Source: Eubacterium sp. (lineage in GTDB: Bacteria; Bacillota; Clostridia; Lachnospirales; Lachnospiraceae). From it: a stretch of 55,122 nt of DNA. The notes under the pieces were generated by a model that saw nothing but the letters and a program-made list of their open reading frames with translations, had not been told where the DNA came from and ran no database searches. Each line of letters opens with the position of its first letter. Position 1 is the first letter of the stretch. This document shows, piece by piece, positions 3,841-15,986 of this stretch. The position numbers were made by a program, and so were the translations under genes. The DNA is taken from the NCBI GenBank assembly GCA_017634475.1, contig JAGBNH010000106.1:1-55122 (forward strand), read 5' to 3'.

Positions 3841-3868
3841 ATTATCACAATCCACCCCCTGATGTCAA
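3841..3868 (-). promoter_or_regulatory. Promoter of infC-rpmI-rplT
   Basis: -35 TTGACA (3868-3863), a 16-base spacer and -10 GATAAT (3846-3841), with TGT directly before the -10 (extended -10). The upstream side abuts the 50-bp tandem repeats at 3870-3969. Confidence 0.75.
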
Positions 3869-3869
3869 C

Positions 3870-3969
3870 ACATTTTTTCCAAATCCACGGCAAACCCCAT
3901 GGTTTTCCCGCAGTTTGCCACATTTTTTCCAACTCCACGGCAAACTCCATAGTTTTTCTGCAGTCTGCC
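3870..3969. repeat. Two tandem 50-bp repeats, each with an inverted repeat
   Basis: ACATTTTTTCCAA recurs at 3870 and 3920 with an exact 50-base period, and the units (3870-3919, 3920-3969) differ at only a few positions. A degenerate third start is visible at 3970. Each unit contains GGCAAAC facing GTTTGCC or GTCTGCC, so each can fold into a hairpin. They lie between the pheA-fusion stop (3990) and the infC -35 box. Function is unknown. Confidence 0.8.
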
Positions 3970-3989: not shown

Positions 3990-5678
3990 TCACGAAGAAA
4001 ATGTTCCGAGTACCGTCAGATCCTCTGTCTCATACCGGATCTCTCCAAGCGCTCTGGACACGTTCCTGTCCGTGAGCTTTCCCTCGAAGCTGACGTAGAA
4101 GCTGTATTCCCACTTCTTTTTCAGGGACGGACGGGATTCGATCCTGGTCATGTTGATGGAGTTCTTGTTGATGATCCCCATGATCTGATAGAGCGAACCC
4201 ACACGATGGGGTGCGGTAAAGCAGATGATCACGGAATCCGATCCCTTGAGCACGGTCTTCTTCTTCGTAAGGATCACGAAACGGGTGGCATTGTCCCGAG
4301 TGAAATTGATCCTTCTGGCCAGGACCTTCAGGTTATACAGCTCTGCTGCCCGTTCGCTGGCAATGGCAGCCTTGGTGATATCCCCGCTCTCCATTACCTT
4401 CTTCGCTGCCAGCGCCGTGTTGCTGGTGGTCTCTGAAGAGAACTGATGACTCTCGATATATTCCCTGCACTGCATGATGCCCTGGTTGTGGGAATAAACC
4501 TTTCGGATATCGGAAAGCTCCGCTTCCGGCAGTCCCAGTAATGCATGCTCGATATCCAGGACCACTTCCTCCACGATGGTCACGCCGGCCCGTCGGATGA
4601 TGTCGTAATTCCCGCTGACAAATCCCGCGGAGCTGTTCTCCACCGGCAGCACGCCGTAATCAGCCTGGCCGTTTTCCACCGCTGCCACCACATCATCAAA
4701 GGTCTTCACATTGAGAAGATCCGCATCCTCACCAAAATACCGCATGGCCGCTGCTTCGGCATAAGCCCCCGGCACCCCGGCATAACAGATCTTCTTTCCT
4801 TCCTTCGGAAGCTCCTCGATAAAGGTATATTCCGAGGGATCAAAGGGATCCGTTTCGATATCTGCAGCCTTAAGCTCCTCCAGCATCTGCGTGACTGTTT
4901 TCTTTGTCAGAGGATGCACTGCGTAGGGTGCGATCTCGCAAAGCGGCTCCAGTACAAATGTCCGGCGTTCCATTTCCACATGGGGGATAAATAATCCCTC
5001 TTCCCGGATCACGGCGTCATCATACAGGAGGATATCCAGATCCAGTGTTCTCGGCCCCCAGTGAACGATCCTCTTCCGCCCTGCTTCCTTCTCAATATCG
5101 TGGAGTACGGAAAGCAGCTCCATCGGGGAGTAAAGGGTTTCGATCTCCACTGCGCCGTTCAGGAAATTCGGCTGCTCCACAGGGCCGTAGGGCTCTGTTT
5201 CGATATATGCCGCAGAGCGCACCACCCGGATATAGGGATCCTTTCCCAGCTGTTCCACGGCCTGGTCAAGATACCGCTTCTTATCTCCCAGGTTGGAACC
5301 GATCCCCAGATATACGGTATGTCTTCCCCTGGTGATGGTCACCGCAACGGTTTCAAAATCCATTCCCATGGGGGAATCCGGCTTGTCCACCCGGACCTCC
5401 ACCGAACGGACCTTCCGGAACCGGAGCAGCAGCTCGGAAGCCACAGCCTCGGCCACAGCCTCGATGAGATTCCATTTCTCTCCGGTCACCACATCCTCGA
5501 TCAGATGCGCCGCCGTCTCATAGCTTACGGTTTCGGACAGATCATCGGATACGGATGACGCCCGAAGATCCAGATATAATTTTGCAGAGACGTAGAATGA
5601 CTGCCCCTGCTCCTTTTCTTCCTCATATACGCCATGATAGGCGTAGATCTTCAGTTTATGGATCTCAATGATATCCAT
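3990..5678 (-). CDS. Trifunctional fusion: dihydroneopterin aldolase, HPPK, prephenate dehydratase
   Basis: 562 residues with three enzymes in one frame. Residues 1-118 are FolB (YHGVYEEEKEQGQSF), which cleaves dihydroneopterin. Residues 121-270 are FolK (GIGSNLGDK, RTLDLDILLYDD), which pyrophosphorylates the product; folB-folK fusions are common. Residues 296-475 are prephenate dehydratase (VPGAYAEAAA, SNTALAA, and NATRF with the catalytic TRF), followed by a C-terminal ACT domain at 483-562 (HRVGSLYQIM and ESRPS, the Phe-binding motifs). PheA is normally separate or fused to chorismate mutase; I know of no common fusion to folate enzymes. AAGGAGG precedes the ATG, and the start overlaps folC by 14 bases, so the two are coupled. 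All key motifs look intact, so all three activities are plausible. Confidence 0.93.
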   Translation of the reverse strand: MDIIEIHKLKIYAYHGVYEEEKEQGQSFYVSAKLYLDLRASSVSDDLSETVSYETAAHLIEDVVTGEKWNLIEAVAEAVASELLLRFRKVRSVEVRVDKPDSPMGMDFETVAVTITRGRHTVYLGIGSNLGDKKRYLDQAVEQLGKDPYIRVVRSAAYIETEPYGPVEQPNFLNGAVEIETLYSPMELLSVLHDIEKEAGRKRIVHWGPRTLDLDILLYDDAVIREEGLFIPHVEMERRTFVLEPLCEIAPYAVHPLTKKTVTQMLEELKAADIETDPFDPSEYTFIEELPKEGKKICYAGVPGAYAEAAAMRYFGEDADLLNVKTFDDVVAAVENGQADYGVLPVENSSAGFVSGNYDIIRRAGVTIVEEVVLDIEHALLGLPEAELSDIRKVYSHNQGIMQCREYIESHQFSSETTSNTALAAKKVMESGDITKAAIASERAAELYNLKVLARRINFTRDNATRFVILTKKKTVLKGSDSVIICFTAPHRVGSLYQIMGIINKNSINMTRIESRPSLKKKWEYSFYVSFEGKLTDRNVSRALGEIRYETEDLTVLGTFSS

Positions 5679-6936
5679 GGAATCCTCCTTCTCTTAACAA
5701 ATCCCCCATAAAGCTTAAGGAACCGGAGATCACGATCACCTCTCCTTCAGCCGAATCCCCAAGGGCAGACTGTACCGCCCGGATGACGTCTCCCTTATCC
5801 TGCGCCCTGACCCCGGCCTCCCGGATCTGCCGGGCCAGCTCCGATCCCTTCATTCCTCTGGGGCTGTCCGGGGTAAAGGTATAGACCTTCCCGGCCAGGG
5901 GAAGCAGTGTTTCCAGCATACAGGAAACCTCCTTATCCCGAAGGACTCCCAGAACAAAGGTAAGCTTCCTCTCCGGAAAGAACCCGGCCAGTTCCTCCGC
6001 CAGCCGCTTCCAGGCATCCCGGTTATGGGCGCCGTCCAGGATCACCAGCGGTTCCTGCTCCAGCACCATGAAACGCCCGGGCCAGACGGTTTCCCGAAGG
6101 CCTTCCTGCATCATTTCACGGGATACTTCGGACAGATGGAAATGTGCAGCTCGCCGGTTATATTCCTCCAGCGCCGTAAGGGCTGTAGCGGCATTTTCCA
6201 ATGCTACCTGCCCCGGCATCCGGATCCGGAACGGCGTATCATCCCAGTTAAAGGTCGTTCCCTGAAGACTCTGCCTTACCTCCGAGATCCGGCGAAGGTC
6301 GGTCCCCACATATGTCCGTCCCTCCAGGTACGTACGAAGCTCATCATCCAGGGGTGAAGAAACCAGCACATCGCCCTCTTTTACGATCCCCAGCTTCTCC
6401 TCCAGGATCTTCTCCCGGGTATCTCCCAGAAACTGCATATGATCCATGCTGACGGTGGCCAGGATATCCACCACCTTTTCGGGCATTACATTTGTGGCAT
6501 CCAGCCTTCCGCCCATGCCGCATTCAATGAGCATGATATCACATTCCTGCTCCGCAAACCAGAGAAAGGCCAGGGCCGTTTCCGTTTCAAAGGCTGTGGG
6601 CGTTCCCGGCAGCTTCTCCTCAGCTGCACGGATCCGCGTCATCAGCTCCGCCACGGTTTCCTCCTCCGGCATGACTCCGTTAATGGTCCACCGCTCCCGG
6701 TATTCCACCAGTGCAGGGGAAATGTATCGTCCCACCTTGAGTCCGGCCCGGATCAGCACATGCTCCACGAAGGACATGATGCTTCCCTTTCCGTTGGTTC
6801 CTGCGATATGAAGGGCCGGGACCCGAAGCTGCGGGTTCCCAAGGGCATGCAAAAGCCCCAAAACGTTGTCCAGCCCCGGAATGATTCCGAGGCTGTTCTT
6901 TTCTGCAATATAGATTTGACTCTCTTTATAATTCAT
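5665..6936 (-). CDS. folC: Bifunctional folylpolyglutamate synthase/dihydrofolate synthase
   Basis: 423 residues beginning MNYKESQIYIAEKNSLGIIPGL. It adds L-glutamate to dihydropteroate and to reduced folates in the cytoplasm. The Mur-ligase P-loop is HIAGTNGKGS, and the second conserved block reads ILDGAHNRDAWKRLAEEL. A 466-codon frame exists, but the first 43 codons overlap the end of the preceding deacetylase gene and lack family character, so ATG 6936 is used; a GTG at 6948 is an alternative. The Shine-Dalgarno (AGGA) is close to the ATG. The 3' end overlaps the folB-folK-pheA fusion, making a folate cluster. Confidence 0.93.
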   Translation of the reverse strand: MNYKESQIYIAEKNSLGIIPGLDNVLGLLHALGNPQLRVPALHIAGTNGKGSIMSFVEHVLIRAGLKVGRYISPALVEYRERWTINGVMPEEETVAELMTRIRAAEEKLPGTPTAFETETALAFLWFAEQECDIMLIECGMGGRLDATNVMPEKVVDILATVSMDHMQFLGDTREKILEEKLGIVKEGDVLVSSPLDDELRTYLEGRTYVGTDLRRISEVRQSLQGTTFNWDDTPFRIRMPGQVALENAATALTALEEYNRRAAHFHLSEVSREMMQEGLRETVWPGRFMVLEQEPLVILDGAHNRDAWKRLAEELAGFFPERKLTFVLGVLRDKEVSCMLETLLPLAGKVYTFTPDSPRGMKGSELARQIREAGVRAQDKGDVIRAVQSALGDSAEGEVIVISGSLSFMGDLLREGGFHGYH

Positions 6937-6955
6937 TTCCTGACACACAATCTGA

Positions 6956-8413
6956 TCACTGCACGCTCTCCGTGCTTTCTGTAGTTTCCTGTCCCGTTGC
7001 CGCCATACTGGCCAGCTCTTCCTCTGTATAAAGGACTCTGTGCTGTACCGGTTCGGTGGTCTCATCGATGGGAAGGAGCCAGTAGCCCTCCGCCTTCAGC
7101 GTATCGATCAGCTCCGGAAGGGCCTCCAGTGTTTCGGGATGGCCGTCCAGATCATGCATCAGCACTACGGAATCCCCGGTATTGTTCCGGATATAGCGAA
7201 GTACGTTCTGATTCAGGATCGCCGGCGAAGTATACTCTGCTTCCGCATCCTCGTTCAGTGCATTCCAGTCAAAATAGGTATAACCGTTATCATTCAGATA
7301 CTGAATGCATTCATAAATATCCACGTCGGAAACCCGGTTGCTGCTGCCTCCCGGGAACCGGTAAAGCCGGACATCCTCTCCGGTCATCTCATAGATCAGG
7401 TCATGCACGGTCTCCACATCCTTTTTAAAGGAATACAGATCTGCATAGATCTCACCATATACATGCGAAGCGGAATGGATCCCCAGTGCGTGTCCTTCAC
7501 GCACCATACGTTTCAGGACCTCGCTCTGCTCCGTATCCTTAAGGACCATGAAAAATGTGGCCTTAACCTGCTTCTTCTTCAGGACATCCATCAGCGCGTT
7601 GCTGTTCTCCGACGGGCCGTCATCGAAGGTAAGATAAACCTTCCTGCCGTTCCAGTTGGCCGGTGCCACATCTCCGTTCACTGAAGTGGTACGCTCGGTG
7701 GATACTTCCTCTGTGGTAGCTTCCTCCGTGGTTCTCAGCATATCCGCGTTCACGATCTCCGAAAGGTCGATCCCCTCGGGAAGAACGGGCTGTGACTGAT
7801 GAAGTACGTTGGAATTCGTCTTCTTATCCTTTTCCAGACTGGCCAGCGCGCTGTTCTCCCGCTCTGCCGGATTCTCGGTAGATACGGCAAGCTTCGCTGC
7901 CTGGCGCTTGCTCAGGGTCTCGTCACGGAGCGCGTCCATCTCATTCTGCATGCTGTGCATTTTGATCATCAGTACCACACAGAGTATGGTAGGGATCAGG
8001 AACAGCACCAGAAGAGCCACCAGGATCATCCGCTTCAACCGGTTCACATTGGAACGGTTATAGGAGCCGTCGGAATAGGTTTCGTCGTTCCCGGACCTTC
8101 CTTCCTCAAGATCCCGTTCTTCTGCAGTCAGCTCCTCGGTATCGTAGCCCGGACCGCCCTCGCGTTCCTGCACGATGTATTTTATCTCTGTCCCCGGCAC
8201 AGCACCGATCTCAGACTCAGCCGGTACAGTGCTGAAACCGGGTTCAGCCGGCACAGTGCCGACCCCGGGTTCAGCCGGTACAGCGCCGATCCCGGGTTCA
8301 GTCCCTTCCTGCATAGCGGGAACGAAGGAATCCCCCGTTTCCTGCTCCATGATCTGCGGCACCTGACCCACGGTCTTATTTGTATTCTTTTTTCGGTTTC
8401 TTTTACTACTCAA
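6956..8413 (-). CDS. Membrane-anchored polysaccharide deacetylase (CE4/NodB)
   Basis: 485 residues. Residues 1-127 are a charged cytoplasmic region with four 9-residue repeats (about 38-73, EPGxGxVPA), 129-150 is one membrane helix, and 155-250 is a Thr/Glu-rich extracytoplasmic linker. The NodB domain (258-455) has the metal-site Asp pair in TFDDGPS (262-268), HSASH (313-317), RFPGGSS and LMHDLDG. Such enzymes deacetylate N-acetyl sugars of peptidoglycan or other wall glycans. The start is TTG at 8413 with GGTGGTG upstream. A Ser/Thr/Glu tail follows the catalytic domain. It lies upstream of folC, perhaps co-transcribed, with no obvious functional link. Confidence 0.9.
   Translation of the reverse strand: MSSKRNRKKNTNKTVGQVPQIMEQETGDSFVPAMQEGTEPGIGAVPAEPGVGTVPAEPGFSTVPAESEIGAVPGTEIKYIVQEREGGPGYDTEELTAEERDLEEGRSGNDETYSDGSYNRSNVNRLKRMILVALLVLFLIPTILCVVLMIKMHSMQNEMDALRDETLSKRQAAKLAVSTENPAERENSALASLEKDKKTNSNVLHQSQPVLPEGIDLSEIVNADMLRTTEEATTEEVSTERTTSVNGDVAPANWNGRKVYLTFDDGPSENSNALMDVLKKKQVKATFFMVLKDTEQSEVLKRMVREGHALGIHSASHVYGEIYADLYSFKKDVETVHDLIYEMTGEDVRLYRFPGGSSNRVSDVDIYECIQYLNDNGYTYFDWNALNEDAEAEYTSPAILNQNVLRYIRNNTGDSVVLMHDLDGHPETLEALPELIDTLKAEGYWLLPIDETTEPVQHRVLYTEEELASMAATGQETTESTESVQ
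8196..8303 (-). repeat. Four tandem 27-bp repeats inside the deacetylase gene
   Basis: Units start at 8196, 8223, 8250 and 8277, each like GGTACAGTGCTGAAACCGGG plus TTCAGCC with a few changes. They encode nine-residue repeats of the type EPGIGAVPA in the cytoplasmic N-terminal tail. Copy number could vary by slippage. Confidence 0.9.
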
Positions 8414-8628
8414 ATCGTATCACCACCAAAACAGCAATATCTTGTGTTTCTTCTCTCACGCAACCACAATTGGTCGCAAAAAGAAAGAATGCGCCCGGTA
8501 ACCCGGACGCTATTTTAAAAAAAACATGATTCAAAAATATATAACGTATACTATCCCCAATAGATTTTCGGCCATTCTCATGGCCATTTCCCCTGTGCCT
8601 AACATTATAATTGCTCTTCCCGACCAGG
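8414..8628. other. Intergenic region between the deacetylase and small membrane protein genes
   Basis: 215 bases without a convincing gene. It holds the terminator at 8478-8510 and, on the minus strand, a possible weak promoter for the deacetylase (TTGCGT, 16-base gap, GATATT). A 99-codon open frame here lacks a ribosome binding site and protein-like composition. Confidence 0.6.
8478..8510 (-). terminator. Intrinsic terminator downstream of the small membrane protein gene
   Basis: On the minus strand GCGTCCGG (8510-8503) pairs with CCGGGCGC (8498-8491) over a GTTA loop, followed by ATTCTTTCTTTTT. Confidence 0.8.
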
Positions 8629-8985
8629 TCAACCCTTGGGCTTCGAAAAATATGGCCGAATTTTCCCCTGCATTTCGTCATATTGCTCATACATTTTCTG
8701 CACACTGTTTTCCAGCAGATAATAATGCATGCAGTAGGGAACCAGCAGTACGAACAGCAAGCCGATCAACGGAAGCAGCATCAGTTGTGAGCTTAGCACA
8801 TAGGCCAGTATACTCATCACGGTGCAGATCGCAACCAGCATGAACACCAGAAGGTGCACCAGCCGTTCATGAGAAAAGAAAGCGATCTGATCCTTATGCT
8901 TTTGAATCTCCTGTTCCCAGTCCCGGTCATCCTCCTTCAGGATCCCGTCAACGTAGTCCAGATAGGCAAGAATTCTTTTCTTCAT
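8629..8985 (-). CDS. Small membrane protein of unknown function
   Basis: 118 residues, not recognised as a named family. Residues 1-45 are a charged, probably helical cytoplasmic region (MKKRILAYLDYVDGILKEDD). Two adjacent membrane helices follow at about 50-95, and the C-terminal tail is charged and ends FSKPKG. The ATG at 8985 is chosen over an upstream in-frame ATG because AAGGGGGAGAGTTGT precedes it. It lies between a phosphodiesterase gene and a terminator, so it probably ends the transcript that starts with the phosphodiesterase. Topology predicts both termini in the cytoplasm. Confidence 0.75.
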   Translation of the reverse strand: MKKRILAYLDYVDGILKEDDRDWEQEIQKHKDQIAFFSHERLVHLLVFMLVAICTVMSILAYVLSSQLMLLPLIGLLFVLLVPYCMHYYLLENSVQKMYEQYDEMQGKIRPYFSKPKG

Positions 8986-15613: not shown

Positions 15614-15952
15614 GTCGAGCAGGACAGGTGATCGCGGCTGACTAAAAGTCAGGTGAGGAAAGTCCGGGCTTCACAGGGCAGGATGCCGGATAACGTCCGG
15701 CGGAGGCGACTCCCGGGAAAGTGCAACAGAAATATACCGCCGGTTTCCACCGGTAAGGGTGAAATGGCGAGGTAAGAGCTCACCGCTGCGCTGGTAACAG
15801 AGCAGGCTCTGTAAACCCCAGCCGAAGCAAGACCAAGTTTGGACCATACGGCTGCCCGCCGTGTCCATGGTAGGTTGCTTGAGCCATACGGTAACGTATG
15901 GACTAGATAGATGATCACCCACGACATAACCCGGCTTATCGTTCTGCTCGAC
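15614..15952 (+). ncRNA. rnpB: RNase P RNA
   Basis: The ends pair as GTCGAGCA (15614-15621) with TGCTCGAC (15945-15952), forming P1. Conserved region I reads GAGGAAAGTCCGGGCTTC at about 15655. Further landmarks are ACAGAAATATACCGCC, GGTAAGGGTGAAATGGCGAGGT split around P11-P12, GTAAGAGCTCACCGC, and the P4-closing part with GATAGATGATCACCC and CATAACCCGGCTTATC. The layout fits the ancestral type A. The RNA is the catalytic subunit that trims tRNA 5' leaders. It lies alone on the plus strand between nitroreductase and nucleoside kinase genes. Confidence 0.95.
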
Positions 15953-15986
15953 TTTCTGATCAGTGCTCTGCAGCAGGCACTCTCTG

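Follow-up and report, generated by a model that had tools for sequence, protein, structure and literature searches.

Dihydroneopterin aldolase (FolB) and HPPK (FolK) catalyze consecutive steps of the pterin branch of folate synthesis, which starts from GTP and is distinct from the p-aminobenzoate branch that uses chorismate; prephenate dehydratase (PDT) acts on prephenate, and no intermediate is common to these steps. Fusions of FolB with FolK and of chorismate mutase (CM) with PDT are already known. The former type is represented by PDB entry 2cg8, presumably the FolB-FolK enzyme of Streptococcus pneumoniae. The latter is represented by the P-protein (E. coli PheA), a CM-PDT according to excerpts of PMC10520331, and excerpts of PMC4224340 describe a FolB-FolK-FolP fusion in eukaryotes for which nine fissions or domain losses are reported. 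The FolB-FolK-PDT-ACT combination considered here is apparently undescribed: no report of a FolB-FolK-PDT architecture was found in the open-licence literature searched, as the earlier note on this DNA had supposed, and the words prephenate and phenylalanine do not occur in the main text of PMC1971073. The architecture may nonetheless sit unremarked in uncurated domain databases.

The window, by which we mean the whole 55,122-nucleotide stretch of DNA that was analyzed, carries these domains in one gene (Table 1). The 562-codon frame that the earlier note had described is real and lies on the minus strand, which that note left unstated; the plus strand of the same interval is interrupted by stops. 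Its reading of the product as a fusion with intact motifs is borne out by Pfam domains, structure alignments and invariant positions. Specifically, the NCBIfam folB and folK models score above their cut-offs, and the best NCBIfam PDT model falls short by 0.1 bit (218.9 versus 219); among the 11 NCBIfam models that gave a match, none spans the folate and PDT parts together, and Pfam yielded neither a CM_2 nor a FolP (pterin-binding) match in the protein. The Pfam ACT match (residues 487-544) lies under Pfam's own cut-off (19.9 versus 27 bits), but alignment with solved PDT structures continues through the ACT domain to residue 560, with residues 297-560 aligning with the PDT of PDB 2qmx.

Table 1. 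Coordinates of the features discussed; positions refer to the window except for loci named L, which carry their own numbering.
Feature	Coordinates	Strand	Remarks
folB-folK-pheA (PDT-ACT) fusion gene	3990..5678	-	562 aa; ATG at 5678, stop 3990-3992
FolB (dihydroneopterin aldolase) domain, residues 4-116	5331..5669	-	Pfam PF02152, E 3.5e-35
HPPK (FolK) domain, residues 123-251	4926..5312	-	Pfam PF01288, E 2e-39; TIGR01498 above cut-off
Linker, residues 272-295	4794..4865	-	fastest-evolving part
PDT domain, residues 297-474	4257..4790	-	Pfam PF00800, E 3.8e-59
ACT domain, residues 480-561	3996..4241	-	ESRP motif at 514-517
folC	5665..7065	-	NCBIfam TIGR01499; 14-nt overlap with fusion gene
Sigma-70-like putative promoter (11/12)	8604..8632	-	upstream of polysaccharide deacetylase-folC-fusion run
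Sigma-70-like putative promoter (11/12)	3841..3868	-	between fusion gene and infC
Two 50-bp direct repeats	3869-3968		arranged head to tail; 88% similar to each other
RNase P RNA, class A	15616-15954		Rfam
PDT proteins with apparent lipoprotein signal	L093 1583-2701; L094 1712-2716; L095 1446-2426; L096 1547-2506; L097 1914-2918
CM-partial PDT-ACT proteins of the second type	L084 1826-2707; L087 1129-2037; L083 1307-2296
CM + shikimate-dehydrogenase-like + shikimate-kinase-like protein	L156 294-1961

Across all 53 aligned fusions, residues that we take to matter for function are invariant in FolB (E21, Y53, E73, K99), HPPK (H206, W207, P209, R210, D215), PDT (E347, N348, H397, Q403, N420, T421, T465, F467) and ACT (G494, L496, I513, E514, S515, R516; within the ESRP motif, residues 514-516 were tallied). 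With respect to selection, each of the four domains gave dN/dS values of 0.02-0.13 over six gene pairs, and the linker gave 0.15-0.26 in the four pairs where it was computable; these values are rough, many dS values exceeding 1, and of the ten loci taken, L007 (wrong frame) entered no pair. By both dN/dS and the 53-fusion alignment, the linker is the least conserved part of the protein.

The fusion gene lies in a minus-strand run of polysaccharide deacetylase, folC and the fusion itself, and infC lies downstream of it. Given the promoter-like site between them, infC may have its own transcription start, although such sites are weak evidence in this window (11 found versus 6.4 expected by shuffling). 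The two direct repeats sit just 3′ of the fusion stop and just before this site; judged by eye, GGCAAAC can pair with GTTTGCC inside each. No T-box or riboswitch was found before the operon by Rfam at the gathering threshold over the whole window, where the only matches were one tRNA and the RNase P RNA.

Among 61 genomes of the same genus, 51 contain the fusion, the window's own included, and in 50 it is a single fused frame at 54-83% identity, which excludes a chance frame. One of the single-frame cases (G058) is cut at a contig end, and in G057 the parts lie on two contigs. Six genomes seem unfused (G009, G013, G016, G020, G045, G051), the FolB and FolK pieces of G016 lying on separate contigs, and four could not be judged (fragments only in G034 and G025; no match in G003 and G021); several genomes are incomplete, and absences are accordingly provisional. 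Beyond the genus, the fusion is rare. In a sample of 299 Lachnospiraceae genomes, nearly one per genus, six gave a full-length match among the matches listed: G000 (the window genome) and G023, both of the same genus, together with G227, G168, G363 and G367. Phylum-wide, a frame spanning both halves was found in one of 398 genomes, the window's own, in a search at E up to 1e-50 that gave any match in 62 genomes and could miss a very divergent fusion.

Unfused relatives point to how the fusion may have arisen. In 14 unfused stretches, chosen for two hits close together or on one contig or for a long open frame, 11 have a same-direction PDT gene behind folBK (the three without are G359, G051 and G300). 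Ten of these genes are CM-PDTs, the one in G224 being separated from folBK by nearly 1 kb; the eleventh, in G100, encodes a PDT that lacks CM, and its start overlaps the stop of folBK. Such adjacency is not general in Lachnospiraceae: 11 unfused folBK-centered stretches, taken as high-scoring FolBK matches, supplied one further CM-PDT directly behind folBK (G379) and one alongside in the opposite direction (G294), and a single one of 19 PDT-centered stretches has folBK next door, again in opposite direction (G112). A four-enzyme FolB-FolK-CM-PDT protein had been suspected from long frames in G105, G394, G331, G187 and G344, and was rejected for these, as stop codons split each into two genes (in frame in G105, G394 and G331); two other long frames (G359, G051) have no PDT gene adjoining folBK.

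The PDT-ACT tree (101 rows) unites 52 fusions in a single clade (100/99), which has the free PDT of G100 as its sister (97/89) and lies within a CM-PDT group; in the concatenated tree (44 rows, with 28 of the 52 main-clade fusions), G100 instead groups with G204 (85/77), close to the base of that clade though not as its sister. Judged by eye, the latter half of the linker in the fusion is similar to the CM-PDT linker of unfused relatives, and the G100 PDT starts within the segment matching it, so that part of the old mutase-PDT linker seems to remain in the fusion. This nesting and the linker resemblance fit loss of CM followed by fusion. The order of steps that we infer is that folBK was directly followed by a CM-PDT gene, that the mutase part was lost to leave a PDT gene overlapping the folBK end (the state seen in G100), and that this gene was then fused to folBK, with CM now presumably supplied by a separate gene. 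Absent from all trees are G057 and the FolBK pieces of G016, G025, G034 and G051, as well as the CM-PDT genes belonging to G045 and G016.

None of the three trees (FolBK, PDT-ACT and concatenated) places the fusions of G363 and G367 in the main clade. AU tests of a single origin gave p 0.068 for the PDT tree, 0.047 for the FolBK tree, where the clade tested retained four unfused rows nested in it, and 0.015 for the concatenated tree, in which the main clade with G363 alone gave p 0.028 and with G367 alone p 0.25; these groups were named after the tree had been seen. Both sequences sit on long branches, their neighbors vary between trees (G187 or G344; G356 or G331), and the tree tool warns of G363 with G187. 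At least two fusion origins are favored on this basis, mainly on account of G363. The partner CMs of G363 and G367 belong to the same group as those of the main clade in the CM tree, which fits common ancestry or transfer.

The PDT half also appears to have been lost at least three times, with FolBK kept in an otherwise kept neighborhood. In the FolBK tree (88 rows), the unfused FolBK of G009/G013, G020 and G045 lie inside the fusion clade; holding the 52 fusions together without these four rows is rejected (AU p 2.6e-7), and one clade of the fusions plus the four is not (p 0.60). Moreover, in G013, G020 and G045 no more than about 160 bp separate folBK from the start of an infC frame, which suggests that PDT has gone from the kept neighborhood; replacement by recombination is the alternative to simple loss. 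The divergent PDT or CM-PDT genes of G009, G013, G020 and G051 form a clade of their own (100/99, PDT-ACT tree).

A fusion that lacks a mutase calls attention to the CM partner, and the earlier note had asked whether the genome holds a CM gene: it does, its only CM_2 hit being on another contig. CM_2 was found in 57 of the 61 same-genus genomes, the four misses being 58-73% complete, and no CM-PDT was found in the 51 with the fusion. The CM genes read from fusion genomes contain no complete PDT. Separate CM proteins, including that of the unfused G100, come in short (about 85-102 aa, CM only; G000, G002, G005, G023), middle (about 170-195 aa; in two of seven, G100 and G055, CM is followed by an ACT hit) and long forms (about 285-292 aa, consisting of CM, about 113-120 residues, and ACT; for example G054, G040, G168, G227 and G363). 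In the four long proteins of this first type that were scanned, Pfam matched no PDT; hhalign placed the middle of a 285-aa protein against PDT lobe 1 (P 2.7e-4, probability 18.7%), and the middle of these proteins is likely a PDT remnant. A second type (G014, G028, G029) retains a partial PDT by Pfam. In the CM tree, CM-partial PDT-ACT proteins of this second type join the divergent CM-PDT from G009/G013, and are perhaps a decayed second P-protein.

Of 13 genomes with a clear CM, which are not independent of one another, eight have CM-PDT next to folBK and no comparable separate CM, save for a CM-shikimate-kinase-like protein in G340, and the five in which PDT is split off or fused (G100, G363, G367, G227, G168) have a separate CM, with ACT recognized in four. 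In the CM tree (70 rows), the family of separate CMs stands next to the CM-PDT group, not inside it, with columns too few to settle where the partner CM came from; the partner may be an old or acquired paralogue instead of an excised piece. This tree omits the CM proteins of G340, G044, G277, L042, L043 and L156 (G097). By eye, L186 (G340) joins CM to a shikimate-kinase-like part, and L156 combines CM with shikimate-dehydrogenase-like and shikimate-kinase-like parts.

Taken together, the architecture, conservation, selection, synteny, distribution and tree placement make it probable that the gene encodes a trifunctional cytosolic enzyme of independent modules, derived from folBK and CM-PDT neighbors after CM loss. 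FolB would convert dihydroneopterin to 6-hydroxymethyl-dihydropterin, which HPPK would pyrophosphorylate, and the PDT-ACT half would convert prephenate to phenylpyruvate with phenylalanine feedback through ACT. The three active sites would share a chain and each work independently; the variability of the linker, the apparently recurrent loss of PDT, and the sufficiency of gene adjacency as a cause of fusion all argue for modules without mutual control.

The principal competing explanation is regulatory coupling, in which Phe bound at ACT alters the activity of HPPK or of the aldolase, or else the quaternary structure, such that Phe supply tunes folate. The invariance of the ACT positions could be cited for it, as could the multiple origins favored above, which hint at some advantage. 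Nonetheless, the PDT half was apparently lost in at least three lineages that kept FolBK and its neighborhood, which argues against obligatory coupling, conservation is lowest in the linker, and adjacency of the genes is enough as a cause. Neither FolB nor FolK uses chorismate, and the chorismate link through which the earlier note had sought a regulatory logic for the fusion is not supported, since it does not extend to these two enzymes. We therefore regard coupling as unlikely. The same doubt attaches to the broader proposal that the fusion evolved more than once and was selected because Phe at ACT, or co-assembly on a FolB oligomer, links the synthesis of pterins to that of aromatic amino acids.

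It is far less probable that the PDT half has decayed or serves some other function, with Phe made by another enzyme. The arginine of the PDT T-R-F motif, present in the window protein (T465, R466, F467), is conserved in 18 of the 53 aligned fusions and replaced by lysine in 35, and this variation is the point in favor of decay. Against it stand the low dN/dS, the many other invariant PDT positions, and the fact that, apart from the fusion, the 51 fusion genomes yielded no PDT that is intact and does not look exported. On the question of another pheA, also raised in the earlier note, the fusion is the only PF00800 match in the window's own genome (81% complete), and 45 of the 51 have no other match. 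The extra match in G014, G028 and G029 is only partial, inside a CM-containing protein, and that in G017, G023 and G046 is a PDT with no ACT hit, no CM and, by eye, a lipoprotein-like signal. PDT proteins of 320-373 aa with such a signal (by eye) and no ACT hit form one clade (100/100, PDT-ACT tree) and are possibly exported prephenate dehydratases. With respect to folate genes, a FolP-like PF00809 frame is present in all 16 genomes tested (in the window genome at G000:C83) and FolE in 15, the miss being the incomplete window genome. In G277, listed as 100% complete, the window protein matched FolBK and no PDT at E 1e-50; this possible Phe auxotroph encodes a 182-aa CM-like protein (L177) with only a partial CM match.

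Post-translational cleavage into FolBK and PDT, which would make the fusion merely genetic, is if anything slightly less credible: the linker is variable in sequence, but its stretch is nearly constant in length (34-37 residues in the 53 fusions). An assembly or sequencing artefact, for which the state of the window assembly (125 contigs) might speak, is scarcely conceivable with the frame unbroken in the 50 genomes noted above, including the one-contig AC2029, where the fusion is in one piece.

The trifunctional enzyme of independent modules would join two pathways that have no intermediate in common at this point. Relatives display a CM-PDT gene following folBK, a free PDT gene in that position, the fusion itself, and an apparent fusion with PDT lost, and this range of states makes a readable case of a bifunctional enzyme being dismantled, with one of its parts attached to a neighbor. 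The CM proteins of many genomes, with ACT and an apparent PDT remnant, are an unusual leftover and candidate Phe-regulated mutases. In terms of annotation, pheA may be missed or misnamed here, being inside a folate gene.

Set against known systems, the fusion resembles several proteins in part. Residues 1-270 align end to end with the FolB-FolK enzyme of PDB 2cg8, which lacks the PDT-ACT half. With the P-protein it shares PDT followed by ACT, and Lachnospiraceae versions have a similar linker before PDT, but FolB-FolK stands in place of the N-terminal chorismate mutase. The exported CM-cyclohexadienyl dehydratase fusions described in excerpts of PMC10520331 are likewise rare and likewise involve Phe-pathway enzymes, yet they are exported, contain CM and carry no folate enzyme. 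The eukaryotic FolB-FolK-FolP protein, as portrayed in excerpts of PMC4224340, also places FolB-FolK at the N-terminus of a labile three-enzyme protein; there, however, the third enzyme performs the next folate step, whereas here it belongs to phenylalanine synthesis.
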